The notes under the pieces are model-generated. The model was not told the origin of the DNA and searched no databases. It saw nothing but the letters and a program-made list of their open reading frames with translations. From a virus, in the IMG/VR virus record IMGVR_UViG_3300033149_001416, positions 1 through 21,845 of that record: 21,845 nucleotides of DNA. One strand, 5' to 3'. The position numbers and the translations under genes are program-made. This document shows, piece by piece, positions 3 through 19,633 of the stretch; the first letter of the stretch is position 1; every line of letters begins with the position of its first letter.

Positions 3-39
3 TAAAAAAACCGATGCTCAGAAAAATTGAACATCGGTT
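3..39 (-). terminator. Rho-independent terminator at the left edge
   Basis: On the minus strand a 12-bp stem (AACCGATGTTCA pairing with TGAGCATCGGTT, one G-T wobble) encloses a 7-nt loop and runs into seven T residues. It is a good intrinsic terminator for leftward transcription. It would end the candidate small RNA starting near 125, and perhaps also transcription from the HTH gene. Confidence 0.75.
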
Positions 40-7626: not shown

Positions 7627-8217
7627 TTAAGTAGAAGGAACCGTATACGTATCCCATAGCACTTCCTGCAGTTTAAGCCCCATGTGCAGCAGCTTATACA
7701 TTATCAGTTCCCTCGACAGCCGGTCTTCCATAAACCGTACCTGGAAATAAAACTCATAATCCGCGGTAATCACAACGCCCGCTCCCGGAGCCGGCGTAAA
7801 GGTAATTTTTGACGATTCTGTCGTAAGGTTATTCGATCCGGTAAACCCGGAAGATTGCGCTGCGCCGTCGAAATAAGGGACGACAGAGTTTACGTCTATA
7901 GGGAAATAATCCAGTGCGAACTCTGTCTCGTTATCATCGCCCGTGCCGAGAGACTCGCCTTCGCTTTTTTTATGCGTGGGGAACTTAATCCAAAACGGAT
8001 CGTATCGGCCCTTGCGCGCCCTGTAAAAATCCCATATAGTCTTCACGGCTGTATCGCTCTGGTATTTAAGAAACAGTGTCAAGTCCCGCATTCCGCGCGA
8101 GCGGTGCGAGTAGGCTTTTTCCTTACCCTTGCCAGACCGGAATATAGTCGTATCGTAGCTGATGCCCTCTTCGATAGTTTTAAAAGCCGGCGATAACGTT
8201 AATATCTCTGTGCTCAT
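7627..8217 (-). CDS. Distal tail protein, DUF2460 family
   Basis: A 196-aa protein. The opening TEILTLSPAFKTIEEGISYDTTIFRSGKGKE, written here only as its YDTTIFRSGKG core, and the C-terminal ITADYEFYFQVRFMEDRL match DUF2460/TIGR02217, the gene transfer agent g12 distal tail family. A central GTGDDNETEFALDYFP region and a FTPAPGAGVVITADY strand are standard for the family. It forms the ring closing the tail tube and docking the hub. The start overlaps the tape-measure stop as ATGA, so translation is coupled. The next gene downstream is the hub, as expected. Confidence 0.82.
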   Translation of the reverse strand: MSTEILTLSPAFKTIEEGISYDTTIFRSGKGKEKAYSHRSRGMRDLTLFLKYQSDTAVKTIWDFYRARKGRYDPFWIKFPTHKKSEGESLGTGDDNETEFALDYFPIDVNSVVPYFDGAAQSSGFTGSNNLTTESSKITFTPAPGAGVVITADYEFYFQVRFMEDRLSRELIMYKLLHMGLKLQEVLWDTYTVPST

Positions 8218-9857
8218 GCGAAAACCCTCTGCATATCTCTATAACCGCGGTTATATTTCTGCGCCTTGATATTGATTTCCTGGATTACCCCGCTGCCTTC
8301 GCTGCGGAGCTTATCCTGAAAACTTTTCGCATCAAGAGCGGTTATATAATAATTGTTTATTATGGTTTGCCCGCCACCACCGCTTTGCCCCTGGTTTAGC
8401 GGCACAACCTGCGCCCCGGCCGGCAGGTAAACTCTTTCTCTGCCCCTTTCCCCCACATCAACAATCCCGCCGCGGACAATGATTCCGCCGGCAGCCGCGC
8501 CTGGAACCTTCGATTCTGCCCCCATCCCGAACGCCGGAGCCAGCCCCGGAAACATCCCCACCAGCGGCTTGACTACCGCGAAATACGCCATTATCTGCCC
8601 CATAATATTCGCCAGTACGTTCAGCATTACGTCCCCGAACGCCCGGAAGTAATCCTCGGCTGTTTTCAGCTCGCGATGGAACGCGTCCAGGAAGAACGTC
8701 TTAAACGATCCGGCCATGTCATCCCAAAGCAGCTTCGCAACCTGGCTCTGGACATTAGCAAACTCCGAGAACTCATCCATTATTGCCTTAAACCGCCCGG
8801 GTTTTTTGCCGTCCGGCGGTGTTATCGTAATATTTTGCAATTCAACGCTCATTTTTTCTAACCGCTTTAAATCTTCGTCGGTAATTAATTCTTTAAGTTT
8901 AACTAAATCAAATGCAATCCCCGCTCGTTGCAGACTAATTGCTAAGTCAGTTAATTTTTCGGAAAAAAGAACAAGATTATGCTCATAATAGTCTTTACGC
9001 AAAAAATCATTTTTTTTAAGTTTCGTCATTTTTTCTTTGGTCATTTCCAATGCGCCTATTAATCTATAGAATTCATCCACTTGTTTAACTGTTCTTAACT
9101 GCCTCATTGCGATAACGCCCTCCGTAAGATATCCCGCAAATTCTTTTAAAACCGGGATCATCTCCTTAGTAAATGCAATCGCCAATCCCCTCAAAGACCT
9201 TTTCAGCTGCAGCATTTTATCATCGAACTCTTTCATCTCTTCTGCGGAGATTTTATCTAAAACAATTCCTGCCTGTTTTGCCTCTTCCCCCAGTTGTTTA
9301 AGCCCTGACTCGCCGAGCAAGAGCATGTTATAAAGCTCTTTCCCGCCTCTGCCCAATATTTCCTGGGCTCTTTGCAATGCTTCTGTTTTATCTTTGGCAG
9401 TGCTTACATATTCCGCTATATCCATAAAAACATCGTATGTTCTCCGCAGTTTTCCAGAGCTGTCAGCCACGCTTACTCCCATGGCGTCAAAAGCCCGTTT
9501 ATACGTCATAAGCCCGTCCTTTGCCTGGCCCATATATTTCGCTAATACCGGTAATGCTTTTGAAAGCGCTTCCATGCTCGCATGTTCCTGCTCCGCGGCA
9601 TAAGCAAGCTTTGAGAATTCTTCCGTCGACATATTAGTCATTTTCGACATCTTATCGAGCTGGACTCCATACGAAATTACATCCTGGGTTATTTTAGACA
9701 GTGCGTAACCCACCGCCAGGATCGATGCGGCAATTGCCTTCCAATTTTTCCTGACATCGTCGGCAAATTGCCGGATATGGTTTTTTACCCCGGTTAATCG
9801 TTTGCTGGCCTCATCGCGCATCTTCATTCTGATTTCCAATTCATGTTTAGACGGCAT
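8214..9857 (-). CDS. Tail tape-measure protein
   Basis: A 547-aa mostly helical protein. The N-terminal part resembles tape-measure proteins (KISYG-type helices, LDKMSKMTNMSTEEFSKLAY, ILGRGGKELYNML). The C-terminal part carries the lambda/gpH-like module: LKTAEDYFRAFGDVMLNVLA, a hydrophobic stretch, then GGIIVRGGIVDVGERGRERV and a Gly-rich linker. It sets tail length and is ejected into the host. Because length scales at roughly 0.15 nm per residue, the tail should be about 80-90 nm (inference). It has an AAGGAGAATG ribosome site. Unusually, it is separated from the chaperone gene by a two-gene cassette on the other strand. Confidence 0.85.
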   Translation of the reverse strand: MPSKHELEIRMKMRDEASKRLTGVKNHIRQFADDVRKNWKAIAASILAVGYALSKITQDVISYGVQLDKMSKMTNMSTEEFSKLAYAAEQEHASMEALSKALPVLAKYMGQAKDGLMTYKRAFDAMGVSVADSSGKLRRTYDVFMDIAEYVSTAKDKTEALQRAQEILGRGGKELYNMLLLGESGLKQLGEEAKQAGIVLDKISAEEMKEFDDKMLQLKRSLRGLAIAFTKEMIPVLKEFAGYLTEGVIAMRQLRTVKQVDEFYRLIGALEMTKEKMTKLKKNDFLRKDYYEHNLVLFSEKLTDLAISLQRAGIAFDLVKLKELITDEDLKRLEKMSVELQNITITPPDGKKPGRFKAIMDEFSEFANVQSQVAKLLWDDMAGSFKTFFLDAFHRELKTAEDYFRAFGDVMLNVLANIMGQIMAYFAVVKPLVGMFPGLAPAFGMGAESKVPGAAAGGIIVRGGIVDVGERGRERVYLPAGAQVVPLNQGQSGGGGQTIINNYYITALDAKSFQDKLRSEGSGVIQEINIKAQKYNRGYRDMQRVFA

Positions 9858-9858
9858 A

Positions 9859-9887
9859 TTGACATTCTCCTTTTCTTAGTGTATCTT
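9859..9887 (+). promoter_or_regulatory. Promoter of the inverted cassette
   Basis: A perfect -35 TTGACA (9859-9864), a 17-nt spacer and TATCTT (9882-9887, four of six consensus bases) point rightward into the 48-aa gene. On the other strand the same bases hold the ribosome site of the tape-measure gene. The predicted start near 9894 leaves a leader of only about 11 nt, mostly the Shine-Dalgarno, so the exact -10 is uncertain. Confidence 0.45.
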
Positions 9888-9904
9888 TTAGTGAGGAGGT
9901 TATT

Positions 9905-10051
9905 ATGTCGAAACAACCAGTAACTGCTGGCGGAATCGTTGGGGTTTTCCTATTCTTATTAGGGGTTATTTTTGCAATAGCGGGTTTCATGTTTCCGGCA
10001 CTTTGGGTTATTTCCGCGATCTTTATCATATTGGGAGTTACCCTTAAATAA
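9905..10051 (+). CDS. 48-aa two-helix membrane peptide (cassette gene 1)
   Basis: A 48-aa protein not assigned to a family. After a short polar start (MSKQPVTAGG) it has two hydrophobic segments (residues 11-30 and 33-46) separated by a Pro, so a helical hairpin in the membrane is likely. GAGGAGGT lies 5 nt before the ATG, one of the strongest ribosome sites in the window. It is the first gene of a rightward two-gene unit; the WYL-like gene starts 15 nt after its stop. The opposite orientation and AT-rich composition set it apart from the virion genes. Possible roles are membrane partner of the next protein, toxin-like peptide or superinfection exclusion; none is shown by sequence. Confidence 0.65.
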   Translation: MSKQPVTAGGIVGVFLFLLGVIFAIAGFMFPALWVISAIFIILGVTLK

Positions 10052-10066
10052 TTAGGCGTTTTTTTT

Positions 10067-10735
10067 ATGCACATTGTAGTAATATTTAGTTTTATCATTG
10101 TCTTACTTCTATTTTTTTCTAAAAAACAAGCGAACATTCAACCTCCTCATAATTTTCCCCCTTCTATATCACTTACTCAAGACGTCATAGATAAATCTAT
10201 CGTTAATCAAACGCAATTAAAAATCACTTACAATGACTTGCATCGCATTATTAATCCGTATTATGTAACCGAGACTCATATCTATGCCTGGTGCAGCTTA
10301 AGACAAGAACCCCGCACATTTAACATTAACAATATTACTTCTTGTGAGATATTAAACTCATTTTTTAACAAGGATGCGCTGGTTGCTAAATATCTCTGGG
10401 AACAAAAAGAATTCTTCAGTAAAAAGTCATATTCCCAATGGCTCAAAGAGCAAAAACATCAAGTGACAGCACCGCAACAATCATTTACTTTTTCTAATGC
10501 GGAAAATATTTTAAAAGGAAAAAAAGTCTTATGGATCAAATACATTTCTTCTAAAAAAGAAATTACGGAAAGAAAAGTTAACATATACGCTTTGGACCGT
10601 GATTTTTTCCATGCTTGGTGCCATAATTCAAAAAGAATAAAAAATTTCAGATACGGCCGGGTATTAGAATGGAAACCGCTGGATGATTCATATAAGATAA
10701 GAAAACGGCCATCTCCGGATACAACCCCGTTATAA
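10067..10735 (+). CDS. Membrane-anchored protein with two WYL-like modules (cassette gene 2)
   Basis: A 222-aa protein starting with a transmembrane or signal-anchor helix (residues 2-18). Two related modules follow, at about 48-100 (LKITYNDLHRIINPYYVTET, HIYAWC, EPRTFNINNI) and 148-210 (VLWIKYISSKKEITER, FFHAWC, IKNFRYGRV). Each has the WYL-type order: strand with aromatic Y, basic/Asn residues, a Y/H-A-W-C strand, then a basic turn. WYL domains sense ligands or nucleic acid and often regulate anti-phage systems, but usually with an HTH; none is seen here. It is strongly AT-rich and on the strand opposite the late genes, converging on the chaperone gene 13 nt away. The ribosome site is weak, so coupling to cassette gene 1 is likely. 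The WYL call is by eye. Confidence 0.62.
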   Translation: MHIVVIFSFIIVLLLFFSKKQANIQPPHNFPPSISLTQDVIDKSIVNQTQLKITYNDLHRIINPYYVTETHIYAWCSLRQEPRTFNINNITSCEILNSFFNKDALVAKYLWEQKEFFSKKSYSQWLKEQKHQVTAPQQSFTFSNAENILKGKKVLWIKYISSKKEITERKVNIYALDRDFFHAWCHNSKRIKNFRYGRVLEWKPLDDSYKIRKRPSPDTTPL

Positions 10736-10748
10736 TGCATATTCTTTT

Positions 10749-11479
10749 TCATTTTTTCATCCTTTTTTCCTGCACGCGTATAACCTCGCTTTGGATTATC
10801 CGCATTGCTTTGATAAACTTTACTGACTGGCCCATCCATCCTCCCTCGTTCGGCAGATATCCTGAATTAAAAAAACTGTACGCTTCTAAATAATCCGCGC
10901 TCTGCTGTGTGATCAGCCTTAAGGGGCAGCGGTTAAACTTCATATCTATTTCCGGTATTGTGATCGCGCCCGGGATTATCCCCTCGTTATCACAGCCCAG
11001 CTCGAGCTTATCCTGCTCCGAGCACTTGCGGCAGTCCAGGCCGATATGGGGCGCCCAGACCGCCAGGATCAGTTTTTTCGCTCTTCCTCCGAAAATTCCA
11101 GGTTCCTGGTAATTTCGTTAGATAATTCAAACATAAGCTCCGGAGTAAACATTTTCAGTATTTCATCGGTAACCACCTGGTAATTTTTGCCCCCAAAGCT
11201 CATACTCACAGTATCAAATTTCACCGGCTGATTTGTTCTCGGGTCAAGAAAATTTTCCATGCCTTTAAGCCCCATTTTCACGGTCAGGATTATCCGGCGT
11301 CCGGATTTAATCTGATATTCATTTGCCATCCGGTCGTATGTTGCCGTCACATCTTTAATCTGGGCATCCATTATCGTATCGATTGCCCCGAGCTTGAATA
11401 CCGTCGGACTATCTTTATCCGGATCGTTAGGGGATATATAATCCTTTGTTTCATAAATATTAATCCCTTTAAATGCCAC
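10749..11479 (-). CDS. Tail assembly chaperone GT fusion made by -1 frameshift
   Basis: Join of 11479-11072 and, after a one-base slip, 11072-10749, giving 243 aa. The slip site A AAA AAC (11078-11072) lies directly before the TGA that ends the short form, and the -1 frame is open for 107 codons from there. A 7-bp stem starts 7 nt downstream. This is the lambda gpG/gpGT arrangement, in which the minor long form bridges the tape measure and tail tube during assembly. The extension has Cys at fusion residues 150, 153, 163 and 185 (DCRKC, LGC, RCP), so it may bind zinc. The start is GTG with AAGGGGTGAT upstream. The slip signal is seen directly; frameshifting efficiency is unknown. Confidence 0.82.
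11030..11064 (-). promoter_or_regulatory. Frameshift-stimulating stem-loop
   Basis: On the minus strand GGCGGTC (11064-11058) pairs with GACTGCC (11036-11030) through seven consecutive pairs, one of them a G-T wobble, around a 21-nt loop. It begins 7 nt after the A AAA AAC heptamer, the usual spacing for a structure that stimulates -1 slippage. Confidence 0.6.
11069..11479 (-). CDS. Tail assembly chaperone, short form (gpG-like)
   Basis: A 136-aa protein, the normal product without frameshifting. It has no strong sequence signature visible by eye, but length, position between tail tube and tape measure, and the slippery sequence at its last codons identify it as the gpG-type chaperone. The body is mixed alpha/beta and the end is acidic (LEFSEEERKN). 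Most ribosomes should stop at the TGA at 11069-11071. The GTG start was chosen because it has AAGGGGTGAT upstream and no ATG is better placed. Confidence 0.78.
   Translation of the reverse strand: MAFKGINIYETKDYISPNDPDKDSPTVFKLGAIDTIMDAQIKDVTATYDRMANEYQIKSGRRIILTVKMGLKGMENFLDPRTNQPVKFDTVSMSFGGKNYQVVTDEILKMFTPELMFELSNEITRNLEFSEEERKN
11072..11078 (-). promoter_or_regulatory. -1 ribosomal slippery heptamer A AAA AAC
   Basis: On the minus strand the codons CGA AAA AAC TGA contain A_AAA_AAC in the proper zero-frame phase, immediately before the stop. This is one of the most efficient bacterial -1 slippery sequences. Confidence 0.8.
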
Positions 11480-13125: not shown

Positions 13126-13728
13126 TTAAGCCCTCTTCAGCGCTTTGCTGATCGCTTTATTTATATACTGCATCCGCAGCGGTTGTAATTTTTCCCATGT
13201 CTGGTAAAACTGCAGGCGCGGTTTAAGCCGGACACTGCGTTTCAAAACATACAGCGGCTTAATTTCCCGCGTTTTGCGTATAATCTTGGCTAAATATGTC
13301 TTGCCCTTTATTTTTACCGGCTCCACGTTTTTCAGCTGTCCCGGGTCCCGGAACCGTTTACGCAACTGGCCGGAAGCTGTGTACATCTCCTTATTGCGCG
13401 ATAAAGGCACCGCCAGCTTTCCGCTTCCCGCGGTAACTGTTCCTCCGGTCTCATGCAGCCTGGCGGTTTTAGAATCTGTATATATTGACACGCCCATGTC
13501 CATAACATTCCCGCCGCCTCCGAAAAAATTCTTTTTAAACCGTGTTAACAGCCCGCCGCGGAACACGCGCACCCCCGGCGGCCCCTGCAGCCGCTCCGCT
13601 TTCCAGGTTTTAAAGAACTTTTTAGCCGAGTGGTCCAGAGCGTCCGACATCCCGATGCGCAGGTATCCCGGCACGCGCCTGAGCGCCTCCTGCAGTTTTT
13701 TGCTGTTCACTTCGACCTGTAATTCCAT
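13126..13728 (-). CDS. HK97 gp10-like / minor tail protein Z family
   Basis: A 200-aa basic protein. Its opening MELQVEVNSKKLQEALRRVP (core VNSKKLQEALRRVP), a GxxGG-rich loop and a KARLHETGG-type motif (TARLHETGGTV, residues about 88-98) are the hallmark of HK97 gp10-like and gpZ tail-completion proteins. A Lys/Arg-rich C-terminal half is unusually long for the family. It acts at the head-tail junction. The ATG at 13728, 5 nt after the upstream stop and preceded by GAGG, was preferred to a TTG at 13758. Confidence 0.72.
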   Translation of the reverse strand: MELQVEVNSKKLQEALRRVPGYLRIGMSDALDHSAKKFFKTWKAERLQGPPGVRVFRGGLLTRFKKNFFGGGGNVMDMGVSIYTDSKTARLHETGGTVTAGSGKLAVPLSRNKEMYTASGQLRKRFRDPGQLKNVEPVKIKGKTYLAKIIRKTREIKPLYVLKRSVRLKPRLQFYQTWEKLQPLRMQYINKAISKALKRA

Positions 13729-13733
13729 AATTA

Positions 13734-14081
13734 TTACCTCTGCACGATTAAAGTCCAAAACCCGCTGTTTTTGCCTGATATTTCGACCACTGCCCAGTCA
13801 ATAGAAGAATCTCCCGGCCTTAGCGGCATAGTCACCTTATCAAATCCTTTTTTGACAACGTCCACCCCGTACGTGGAATGATTGGTTATCCGCACCCGCG
13901 CTTGATTCTGCATCAGCCGGCTGTTAGTATGCGGGTTGGCGTCTACGCGGAACCGCGTGACAAACGCTTTGATTGTTTTTGCCGAGCCGCCGTAGGGTGT
14001 ATAAATAATTTCCTCAGCCGTCTCATTTGTGTTTAATATCCCGTTATAAAAATCGTTTGCTATTTGAGTTTTGAACGTCAT
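13734..14081 (-). CDS. Head-closure / head-tail joining protein
   Basis: A 115-aa protein in the gpFII position, between the capsid genes and the gp10-like gene. It ends DWAVVEISGKNSGFWTLIVQR (core DWAVVEISGKNSGFW), the kind of final beta-hairpin found in head-tail joining proteins, and the middle has MPLRPGDSSIDW. It probably seals the portal after packaging. The assignment is by position and this C-terminal pattern. GAGGAAA lies about 12 nt before the ATG, a rather long spacing. Confidence 0.58.
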   Translation of the reverse strand: MTFKTQIANDFYNGILNTNETAEEIIYTPYGGSAKTIKAFVTRFRVDANPHTNSRLMQNQARVRITNHSTYGVDVVKKGFDKVTMPLRPGDSSIDWAVVEISGKNSGFWTLIVQR

Positions 14082-14106
14082 TATAATTATATTTCCTCAT
14101 TCTTCA

Positions 14107-17437: not shown

Positions 17438-19086
17438 AATTCCTCCTCCTCCTCCTCATCGCCGGTTTTATCGTTGCCCAGATCATCGATTACATCATTA
17501 TTATTTTTACTGCCGGCATTGTTTTCCTCCCGCGGCTGCCCGCTGTCGATCCCCAGCTCTTTCTTGCGCTCCTGCTCCACAGCTATCTGCTCGAACCCTT
17601 CTTCCCAGTCCTCGCCGCGCGACGCGTACACGTCCGCGTGGGTCATTATTTTATTCTCGAGCCCGATTTTTGTCGCGGTCGCGTCTTTCACCGGGTCCAC
17701 CCACTCCCAGCCCGGAGCGATCCATTTTGCCGCTGTCCACAGGTATAACTTATCGATAAACTGCTTCATGGACAAATGCGGTATGCGTCCCCGCATTACC
17801 GCTTCTTCCATCCACTGCCTGTACGCCGGCTGGCAGAACTTATTTACCAGCCACTGCTGGCGCATGCGGAAATACCTACGGGCCTCTAAAAGAGCGGACC
17901 TTGCGCTGGAATAGTTTGACTTGCGGAAATCCTTAAGCACCAGCTCATAAGGCAAGTTTAATGAGGCGCAAACTGACTGCAGCACTCTGTCCACAAAAGG
18001 GTCGAATGTCATGCCCGGGCGCTCCGGCTTAAACTGCTGCATTTTCTCTCCGGGGTGCAGCCTGACTATTCCCGCCGGCTTCATTTTTGTAATTTTGTCT
18101 CCGGACGAATTTGTATCGTCCGTGCCGTCAACCATTGATTCCTCGATTTCCGGCGTTTCGATTATCATGGAAATGCACGCTCCGATGCGCGCGGTCATCA
18201 GCTCCGCTTCCATATAAAGCCCCAAATTGCGGAACGCGTCGATAACCGGCGCCAATATCGGCACCCCGCGCGACTGTCCCGGCCGTTCCACCCAGTACAA
18301 ATGGAACATATTGATATGCCCGTATTTATCGTATTTAGGTATTTCGAGAAAATCGTTTTTTTTCGTTGTATCCCCGAAGATATACGTCCCTGGATGCGCT
18401 TTGCGGATATAATAAGATATCGGCTCTCCGTAGGTCTTGCCGATTTTCACGCCCTTGCGGATATACTTATTAGCGTGCTCGCCGGAAGGCGTATCCATGC
18501 GGTCGGACTCGATCATCTGGTAGCACAGCGAGTACGGCTTGTGTTTGCGGTCGATTAAAATGCGCATGACCAGCGCTTCGCCGTTAACCAGGGTATTGCG
18601 GTCGATCATCGCCTGTATTTCTGAAAAGTTCAGGCGGTCCCCTGCATCCGATTTTTGCGCCCAGGCGTTAAACTCCGCCTCAATCACCTTGCGTACTTCG
18701 CGCACCTGCTTTGGTGTAAGCCCTACTGCTTTCCCGTCCACGCGGCTCTGCATTTTTATGCCGGTGCCGATATCGTTGGTAACGATAGTATTTATGGCCC
18801 CGCCCGCGTAAGGGTCGTTCCGCACCAAGTCCCGGGAACGTTCGCGCAGGTCCGGCAGGTCGTTTAATATAACCTCGTCCGCGGAATAGTCCCCGGGGAC
18901 CCAGGAACTTTTTACTCTATCTTTTGCCGCGCCGCGGTAATGCGAAGAGAATTTGTCCGTCATGTACGACGCCAGCCGGTACCGTTTGCGGGCAAACGCC
19001 GCCTTGGGGCTGAATATGCCGATTATTCCGTCGATTGTTTTAGATAATTTGTCGTGCAGGGGTTTTCCTGTTTTTATTTCTCTCAT
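17434..19086 (-). CDS. Portal protein, lambda gpB family
   Basis: A 550-aa protein with the lambda-type portal signature: DLPDLRERSRDLVRNDPYAG (residues about 53-72) then INTIVTNDIGTGIKMQSRVDG, followed by LVNGEALVMRI and a late RMRQQWLVNKF region. The C-terminus is disordered and acidic (ends EEEEEEL). It forms the dodecameric ring for DNA entry and exit. The ATG at 19086, one base after the upstream stop and with GAGGA 8 nt upstream, was chosen over a TTG at 19101. The connector gene precedes it and the protease follows, as in lambda. Confidence 0.88.
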   Translation of the reverse strand: MREIKTGKPLHDKLSKTIDGIIGIFSPKAAFARKRYRLASYMTDKFSSHYRGAAKDRVKSSWVPGDYSADEVILNDLPDLRERSRDLVRNDPYAGGAINTIVTNDIGTGIKMQSRVDGKAVGLTPKQVREVRKVIEAEFNAWAQKSDAGDRLNFSEIQAMIDRNTLVNGEALVMRILIDRKHKPYSLCYQMIESDRMDTPSGEHANKYIRKGVKIGKTYGEPISYYIRKAHPGTYIFGDTTKKNDFLEIPKYDKYGHINMFHLYWVERPGQSRGVPILAPVIDAFRNLGLYMEAELMTARIGACISMIIETPEIEESMVDGTDDTNSSGDKITKMKPAGIVRLHPGEKMQQFKPERPGMTFDPFVDRVLQSVCASLNLPYELVLKDFRKSNYSSARSALLEARRYFRMRQQWLVNKFCQPAYRQWMEEAVMRGRIPHLSMKQFIDKLYLWTAAKWIAPGWEWVDPVKDATATKIGLENKIMTHADVYASRGEDWEEGFEQIAVEQERKKELGIDSGQPREENNAGSKNNNDVIDDLGNDKTGDEEEEEEL

Positions 19087-19087
19087 A

Positions 19088-19633
19088 TCAAGGGTCCTCA
19101 AATTGTACGTACGTTTTCCTGGTTTGCCCCGCGGCCAGCTGCCGTTTCAGCCTGTCCTCGAGTTCCATCAGCTCAGTCAGGGAGAATTTATTTATATTCA
19201 CGCCGTCGACCTGGTATGACTGCACTGCCCCGCCCGTAATTATCGCGTTAATTGCCGCGCGCACGGCGTTAAGCCTTTCCTGTGTAGTCGAAGGAGTTGA
19301 TGTTGTTGATACCACCTGCTGCACGATATCCGTGACATTAAGCAGGTCCCCATCGGTGTAATACGATCCCGATGGATCCGTAATTTTCAGCTGTACTTTA
19401 TATATCGCCTTTGTATTCGGTGTTGTCCAACCAGGGGTGTAAATCCACAACCCGTTTTGGCTTTCCGTCATCGCCTGGTACTGCGTGGCCCACCCGCTTG
19501 ATTTCCATTCTCCGCCGCTGAAATCGTACATTTTACCGTCTGAAAGCCGGATAATTCCAAACGCTACTGCTGACACATCGCCTGTCGGCTCCTGGTACTG
19601 CGGATAATAGATATCGGTTTTATTAAGATCCAT
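19088..19633 (-). CDS. gpW-like connector with an N-terminal beta domain
   Basis: A 181-aa protein. The C-terminal 65 residues resemble lambda gpW: ERLNAVRAAINAIITGGAVQ (119-138), SYQVDGVNINKFSLTELMEL with the dG-turn, and a final basic tail. gpW is normally about 70 aa and lies just before the portal gene, as here. Residues 1-105 are an extra beta-rich domain with DIYYPQYQEPTGDVSAVAF and YKVQLKITDPSG, like the BppU-type domains on phage baseplate and fibre proteins. A Ser/Thr linker (108-117) joins the halves. Fusion of gpW to such a domain is unusual. GAGGAGAT precedes the ATG. Confidence 0.68.
   Translation of the reverse strand: MDLNKTDIYYPQYQEPTGDVSAVAFGIIRLSDGKMYDFSGGEWKSSGWATQYQAMTESQNGLWIYTPGWTTPNTKAIYKVQLKITDPSGSYYTDGDLLNVTDIVQQVVSTTSTPSTTQERLNAVRAAINAIITGGAVQSYQVDGVNINKFSLTELMELEDRLKRQLAAGQTRKTYVQFEDP

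Follow-up and report, generated by a model that had tools for sequence, protein, structure and literature searches.

Two genes of a phage run against its late operon, in the gap between a tail assembly chaperone and a tape measure protein (TMP) that normally stand next to each other, which raises the question of what kind of element these genes form and what they do there. The window, that is, the whole IMG/VR record of 21,845 bases analysed here, carries its structural genes on the minus strand. The portal (TIGR01539) and an SppA-type protease were identified by family matches and the tail genes through PHROG, and the capsid gene is a guess from its position only.

Layout and borders of the cassette

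The TMP gene (8214..9857, minus strand) closes the slot on its downstream side, following the order of the late operon, and was recognised through PHROG tail length tape measure families, the best named match being phrog_8462 (4.3e-25). The chaperone on the other side comprises a G-type frame (11069..11479, minus strand), which had no family match in Pfam or PHROGs and is named from its place and its frameshift, and a T-type extension (10749..11075, minus strand) reached by a −1 frameshift. Frame G stops at 11069 directly after the slip site A_AAA_AAC, and the −1 frame continues to the stop at 10749. Complete T-type extensions span 95–121 codons among the surveyed homologues, and the A_AAA_AAC slip was observed in 110 of 110 plus-strand homologue rows, in which some contigs are counted twice, and in 14 of 15 genome loci. 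The insert is exactly the 891 bases from the stop of the frameshifted chaperone (GT, 10749) to the TMP start (9857).

Within the insert, the plus strand encodes a 48-aa peptide (P48; 9905..10051), which is a predicted two-helix membrane hairpin judging by its ORF and hydrophobicity, and a 222-aa WYL protein (10067..10735). The WYL gene faces the chaperone extension stop to stop, in convergent orientation and 13 nt apart, and the border on the TMP side is start against start, 47 nt apart. A preliminary description of this DNA, made from the letters alone, had reported two AT-rich opposite-strand genes with a very strong ribosome site and tight coupling, and these features were all recovered. 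The two ORFs are separated by 15 nt, and the G+C content of the insert is 34.1%, against 46.4% for the TMP gene, 45.0% for GT and 49.3% for the window. The Shine-Dalgarno sequence AGGAGG (9894..9899, plus strand) ends 5 nt ahead of the P48 ATG, and the pattern AGGAGG-4..9-ATG occurs only this once on the plus strand, compared with 10 times on the minus strand; the ribosome site of the 222-aa gene is a weak AGG only. The longest ORF over 1000 single-base shuffles of the insert reached 111 aa, so the actual ORF of 222 aa is not a product of chance. No terminator was found after the WYL gene at 10650–10900, where the convergent stop-to-stop border lies in its place, and no Rfam match was obtained at 9600–11200.

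Relatives of the phage and the chaperone–TMP slot

The portal alignment retrieved at least 592 relatives in viral_contigs and 148 in genome_contigs, the best 80 being kept in each case. In the L002 record the portal is identical across 553 matched residues, and this record extends the phage toward the head side; searches of it and of the window, both of them fragments, found no integrase (PF00589) or resolvase (PF00239). The six best genome loci have portals of 47–49% identity, with the other 74 of the best 80 at ≤37%. Five of these six loci come from three Candidatus Omnitrophota genomes and one from a Deltaproteobacteria-labelled MAG; two of the five, L095 and L096, belong to the Candidatus Velamenicoccus archaeovorus chromosome, which is closed. 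When the chaperone alignment was run against 384 genomes of the Velamenicoccus phylum, 13 matched. Since the nearest portal loci and the chaperone matches fall in that phylum, the host is probably a Candidatus Omnitrophota bacterium, a member of an almost uncultured phylum, and some of the relatives are prophages. The Deltaproteobacteria-labelled locus (L097, 47% identical portal) stands amid Omnitrophota matches and possibly reflects a binning error. The L002 record also carries a 362-aa ORF (L002:800-1888) with many near-identical short repeats (QSGxxSSVG-like), and two small ORFs (L002:5302-6342) between the terminase and the next large genes, which may mark another accessory site.

Three sources of chaperone relatives, namely viral_contigs (the best 80 of 107), the portal loci and genomes, gave 119 junctions including duplicates, of which 83 are distinct by GT end, in 55 clusters at 90% identity. 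Six junctions (L043, L188, L241, L242, L253 and L274) were left out because GT or TMP lies off the contig end or the slip site is absent, and the gaps of L066 (set to 840) and L222 (set to seamless) were fixed by hand reading. The statement that the two neighbours are normally adjacent was borne out by this survey: 78 of the 83 distinct junctions are seamless, with the TMP start at −52 to +13 nt relative to the GT stop, and five, the window included, carry an insert. L222 had been taken for a 143-nt insert and was rejected, as its junction is seamless and its TMP frame broken; the break comes soon after the start (L222:3811), through mutation or sequencing error. Two further searches (11 and 128 genomes) yielded no new inserts, and no title on such a slot in Omnitrophota phages appeared in the literature searched.

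All five inserts are antisense to the late operon, with cargo that differs between phages. The L065 insert (431 bp; gene at 13723-14106) encodes a protein of 127 aa that is hydrophobic in an N-terminal segment and matches PHROG 11546 of unknown function (2.4e-9); by eye, its C-terminal half is BamE/SmpA-like. The L276 insert (genome G109, 318 bp) encodes an 84-aa two-segment protein with an ATG start and the L277 insert (genome G148, 310 bp) one of 91 aa that has its segment at the N-terminus; the two show no likeness, and none of the slot proteins of L065, L276 and L277 has a Pfam match. The L066 insert (839 bp, 18353-19192) encodes a 206-aa four-segment protein, with no Pfam match over the cut-off, and an 84-aa protein of the Imm_superinfect family (PF14373), whose curated cut-off it passes with E 7.5e-17. 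The latter also matches phrog_1039, ‘immunity to superinfection’ (2.5e-23), and matched 1699 phage records by tblastn; among the 15 listed, several carry a superinfection immunity annotation. The 206-aa protein of L066 and the 84-aa protein of L276 are related (BLASTP 6e-8), which indicates that cargo families recur. L066 is the weakest of the five inserts, because its putative TMP start lies 125 bases from the contig end and only 15 codons of this stretch resemble other TMP starts. The end of that contig carries a repeated short word that, by eye, resembles an insertion-element terminus.

A TM-like segment, defined as one above a Kyte-Doolittle threshold, is present in all seven insert proteins, compared with 3 of the 21 genes that the window has on its minus strand and 2 of 7 late-strand frames inside the inserts, a contrast that is suggestive only because AT-richness favours hydrophobic codons. 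In the chaperone tree, which has few columns and long branches, L066, L276 and L277 group together with the empty L070, and the window and L065 each stand apart (four label changes). Because L066, L276 and L277 form one group, the inserts represent three places in the tree and not five independent events.

The preliminary description had also claimed a promoter-like sequence, and this claim stands through comparison only. The putative promoter (9859..9887, plus strand; TTGACA, 17 nt, TATCTT) overlaps the ribosome-binding region of the divergent TMP gene and is at chance level when taken on its own (4 sites in 9600–11100 versus 3.9 expected), so it gains weight solely from the other inserts. 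All five inserts carry TTGAC next to the TMP start, on the strand antisense to the late operon, as TTGACA in four and TTGACC in L065. It is accompanied by hexamers that share 4 or 5 of 6 positions with TATAAT, the spacings being 17, 17, 15, 17 and 16 in the window, L065, L066, L276 and L277, respectively, each hexamer being the best of five spacings (15–19). Among 58 distinct seamless TMP starts, including 11 genome loci and L222 with its corrected start, TTGAC was found in 2 and TTGACA in 0 (Fisher 3.0e-6 and 8.4e-6 versus the inserts), although the GT frame overlaps the seamless starts and limits their sequence, and L066, L276 and L277 are not independent. The best −35/−10 scores, out of 12, are 10, 9, 10, 10 and 11 in the same order of inserts, compared with 70 seamless regions of which 6 score ≥9 and 1 scores ≥10. 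One way to read this shared motif is as a promoter that persisted as the cargo was exchanged.

The rarity of the inserts (5 of 83 junctions), and the fact that relatives of the cassette were not found, might suggest a chance or decaying insertion that left functionless remnants. However, the intact 222-aa ORF with two recognisable WYL domains, the tidy stop and start borders, and the shared promoter-like motif make such an origin very improbable.

The tandem-WYL protein and the P48 peptide

The 222-aa protein was described at first sight as N-terminally anchored, with two WYL modules and no helix-turn-helix (HTH), and the profile searches and hydrophobicity agree. The whole protein matches the Pfam WYL family PF13280 with E 3.1e-12 (46.8 bits against a curated cut-off of 21.8), and its halves, scanned apart, each match it as well (E 2e-5, 25.0 bits, and E 1e-5, 25.9 bits); the modules lie at residues ~39–94 and ~146–203. 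Matches were also obtained to phrog_6785 of unknown function (4.5e-16), to PADLOC WYL models from defence contexts (best 2.9e-17) and to solved PafBC (2.4e-5), the nearest solved WYL relatives being PafBC and PafC. Residues 157–201 also match a PHROG family that bears the name DNA ligase (5.5e-5), which is another WYL-type match. The two modules align weakly with each other over 41 columns, an alignment equalled by 16 of 1000 shuffles, and the second is basic (residues 126–222, pI 10.0, 21 K+R versus 10 D+E). No HTH family was found in Pfam, NCBIfam or PHROGs, and residues 1–19 instead form a strongly hydrophobic, membrane-type segment, in which helix 2–18 is the sole confident helix of the model. 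The single-sequence AlphaFold2 models are of low confidence (pLDDT 36.8 for the whole protein and 50.4 for the second module), the second-module model had no PDB match at E ≤ 0.001, and the structure prediction counts neither way on the WYL fold. Two lysines follow the helix and just one histidine lies near its start, a pattern from which the positive-inside rule predicts that the WYL modules are probably on the cytoplasmic face.

Searches for relatives of this protein gave 3 (single protein), 6 (alignment A1) and 169 (A6) pattern matches in viral_contigs, none of them confirmed, and 59 in genome_contigs, of which 0 were confirmed; since the pattern method recovers close relatives only, this absence is weak evidence. 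The lone match in the phages collection (E 0.4) lies on the strand opposite an annotated ligase gene and was discarded. The plasmids search returned 24 records at E ≤ 1 (best 2e-4), the annotated ones among the 20 listed being YafY/WYL regulators. The closest WYL sequences in the 384 genomes of the host phylum are 11 weak matches in 11 genomes (E 6e-6 to 8e-5), all of them exonuclease-WYL proteins of ~280 aa, which differ from the 222-aa protein in having an exonuclease-like N-terminus, by eye, and one WYL each. No WYL relative was found in the related phage loci either, so the protein looks accessory. We know of no WYL domain that serves as an exclusion protein.

PafBC, CapW and BrxR have the WYL domain in common with the 222-aa protein by sequence profile, but they carry an HTH (PMC9122588), whereas the 222-aa protein has a membrane helix and two WYL modules instead. 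No description of a membrane helix followed by two WYL modules, free of HTH or enzyme, was found in the literature searched, including the accessible parts of PMC4012209 and PMC9122588, which is not proof of absence. WYL domains are described as mostly regulators or nucleic-acid binders (PMC4012209), and their commonness among regulators would suit a membrane-tethered regulator that acts on the phage's own programme, for example on late transcription or lysogeny; the missing HTH, the membrane anchor and the accessory look of the protein render this role highly unlikely.

P48 has two hydrophobic segments (residues 11–29 and 30–48), in line with the two-helix peptide first proposed, and no credible family match in Pfam, PHROGs, NCBIfam or PADLOC. 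Nothing credible appeared among possible relatives, the 2 of 384 phylum genomes matching at E ≤ 0.01 doing so within frames of 388 and 624 aa. In single comparisons, P48 matched HK97 gp15 with E 0.26, which is not significant, and the Imm protein of L066 over 14 residues with E 0.014, which is marginal; in Pfam, PF14373 is matched by neither P48 nor the WYL protein. Conservation of the gene pair in other phages had been put forward as a check, and the searches returned no credible relative of either protein and hence no conserved pairing.

A short hydrophobic hairpin encoded first, behind a strong ribosome site and beside a sensor-type domain matched by PADLOC models from defence contexts, could be understood as an abortive-infection or toxin unit, with P48 as a membrane-disrupting effector that the anchored WYL sensor checks or triggers. 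As P48 has no credible family and the pair no relative in the collections searched, we consider this unlikely.

Comparison with known morons and a proposed function

The closest positional precedent is in phage HK97 (NC_002167, AF069529), where gp15, a ‘moron product’, lies between the frameshifted gp14 and the TMP gp16, the same gap as that of the cassette. However, the gp15 gene is on the late strand and has a putative terminator, while the cassette consists of two opposite-strand genes encoding other proteins, with no terminator found. HK97 gp15 is described as a small, predicted inner-membrane protein that blocks DNA injection (PMC10883804) and is reported to confer resistance to HK97 and HK75 (PMC6379469). 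The Imm_superinfect protein of L066 is a second precedent, occupying the same slot, antisense and membrane-type like the cassette, though neither protein of the window matches its family. T4 Imm, whose family this is, is classed under inhibition of DNA injection (PMC11436027), and its action has been called less easily understood (PMC6832632).

Precedents also exist for antisense genes within larger operons. The Tab moron of Pseudomonas phage JBD26 is an accessory anti-phage gene on the minus strand, read from a promoter of its own inside the late operon, which resembles the arrangement proposed for the cassette, but it lies between terminase genes, encodes 83 aa with no known domains, blocks tail assembly and is paired with anti-Tab (PMC10884400). 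In the noncontiguous operon of Staphylococcus phages (Tha/Ith), an antisense gene is likewise nested in a larger operon and has its own promoter, as is proposed for the cassette, but that gene encodes the inhibitor of a defence gene in the lysogeny module; antisense noncontiguous operons are described as switching phage genes between lysogeny and lysis and as controlling a prophage defence gene (PMC11087260). These two precedents make a scheme of lysogenic transcription and antisense damping plausible for the cassette.

The cassette has two of the features of a moron, namely extra genes between genes that are adjacent in relatives and a base composition unlike that of the operon; its promoter is putative, and no terminator was found. 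Because the five inserts are antisense, of membrane type and share a promoter-like motif, and because HK97 gp15 occupies the same gap, the cassette may be regarded as a reverse moron that occupies a slot with exchangeable cargo. Given the slot, its membrane cargo and the precedents, the likeliest job appears to be superinfection exclusion or a similar role against phages, and we put the combined reading, a reverse moron acting against other phages at the cytoplasmic membrane, at about an even chance. The lysogenic-conversion or superinfection-exclusion idea of the preliminary description thus survives in general form, through Imm_superinfect in the slot of a relative and gp15 in the HK97 gap. 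Its ranking of the pair as the best candidate for a new system was too strong: morons are a known kind of element, and what is new is the cargo, a membrane-anchored tandem WYL protein, in a slot that is apparently swappable and antisense. As a counterpoint, a named exclusion domain is present in one of the five cassettes, that of L066, the least complete junction.

The same slot evidence would also accommodate a reverse moron for lysogenic conversion and not for defence, in which the pair alters the envelope, stress response or nutrients of the host and the WYL modules, in the manner of PafBC, sense DNA damage or a nucleotide of the host. The proximity of PafBC and PafC among solved WYL proteins agrees with such a role, as does the L065 slot protein (127 aa, N-terminal hydrophobic), which belongs to no exclusion family. 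Nevertheless, the sole slot cargo of named function is Imm_superinfect, and HK97 fills the gap with an exclusion moron (function: PMC10883804), which leaves conversion a possible but clearly less favoured role.

Under the exclusion reading, the cassette would be an accessory transcription unit inserted exactly between the frameshifted GT stop and the TMP start, and the slot cargo would have been exchanged over time, with relatives carrying differing antisense membrane genes and a −35 box against the TMP start. In the prophage state, the late operon would be silent and the cassette would be read from its own putative promoter; upon induction, late transcription would cross the cassette antisense and should damp it. 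The P48 hairpin and the anchored tandem-WYL protein would sit in the inner membrane, where the WYL modules, the second of which is basic, could, speculatively, bind the nucleic acid of a phage entering the cell or a nucleotide signal that arises during its infection; such binding could block entry or trigger the membrane partner. We infer lysogeny of this phage, together with the transcription, topology and function of the cassette, from the sequence and its comparisons.

A bolder and rather doubtful extension is that an anchored tandem WYL protein with a two-helix partner constitutes a new class of exclusion or defence system, which reads phage nucleic acid or nucleotide at the inner membrane face, and that Omnitrophota phages keep a promoter-equipped antisense slot by the TMP gene for swapping, which predicts exclusion genes that have no family model. 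The slot offers a rule, by which an antisense gene between GT and TMP with TTGACA at the TMP start would point to accessory, probably exclusion-type, genes. If this rule holds, the location of HK97 gp15 would be extended to very distant phages and to the opposite strand, and the tandem-WYL membrane protein would bring a domain best known from the regulators of defence systems to the membrane.
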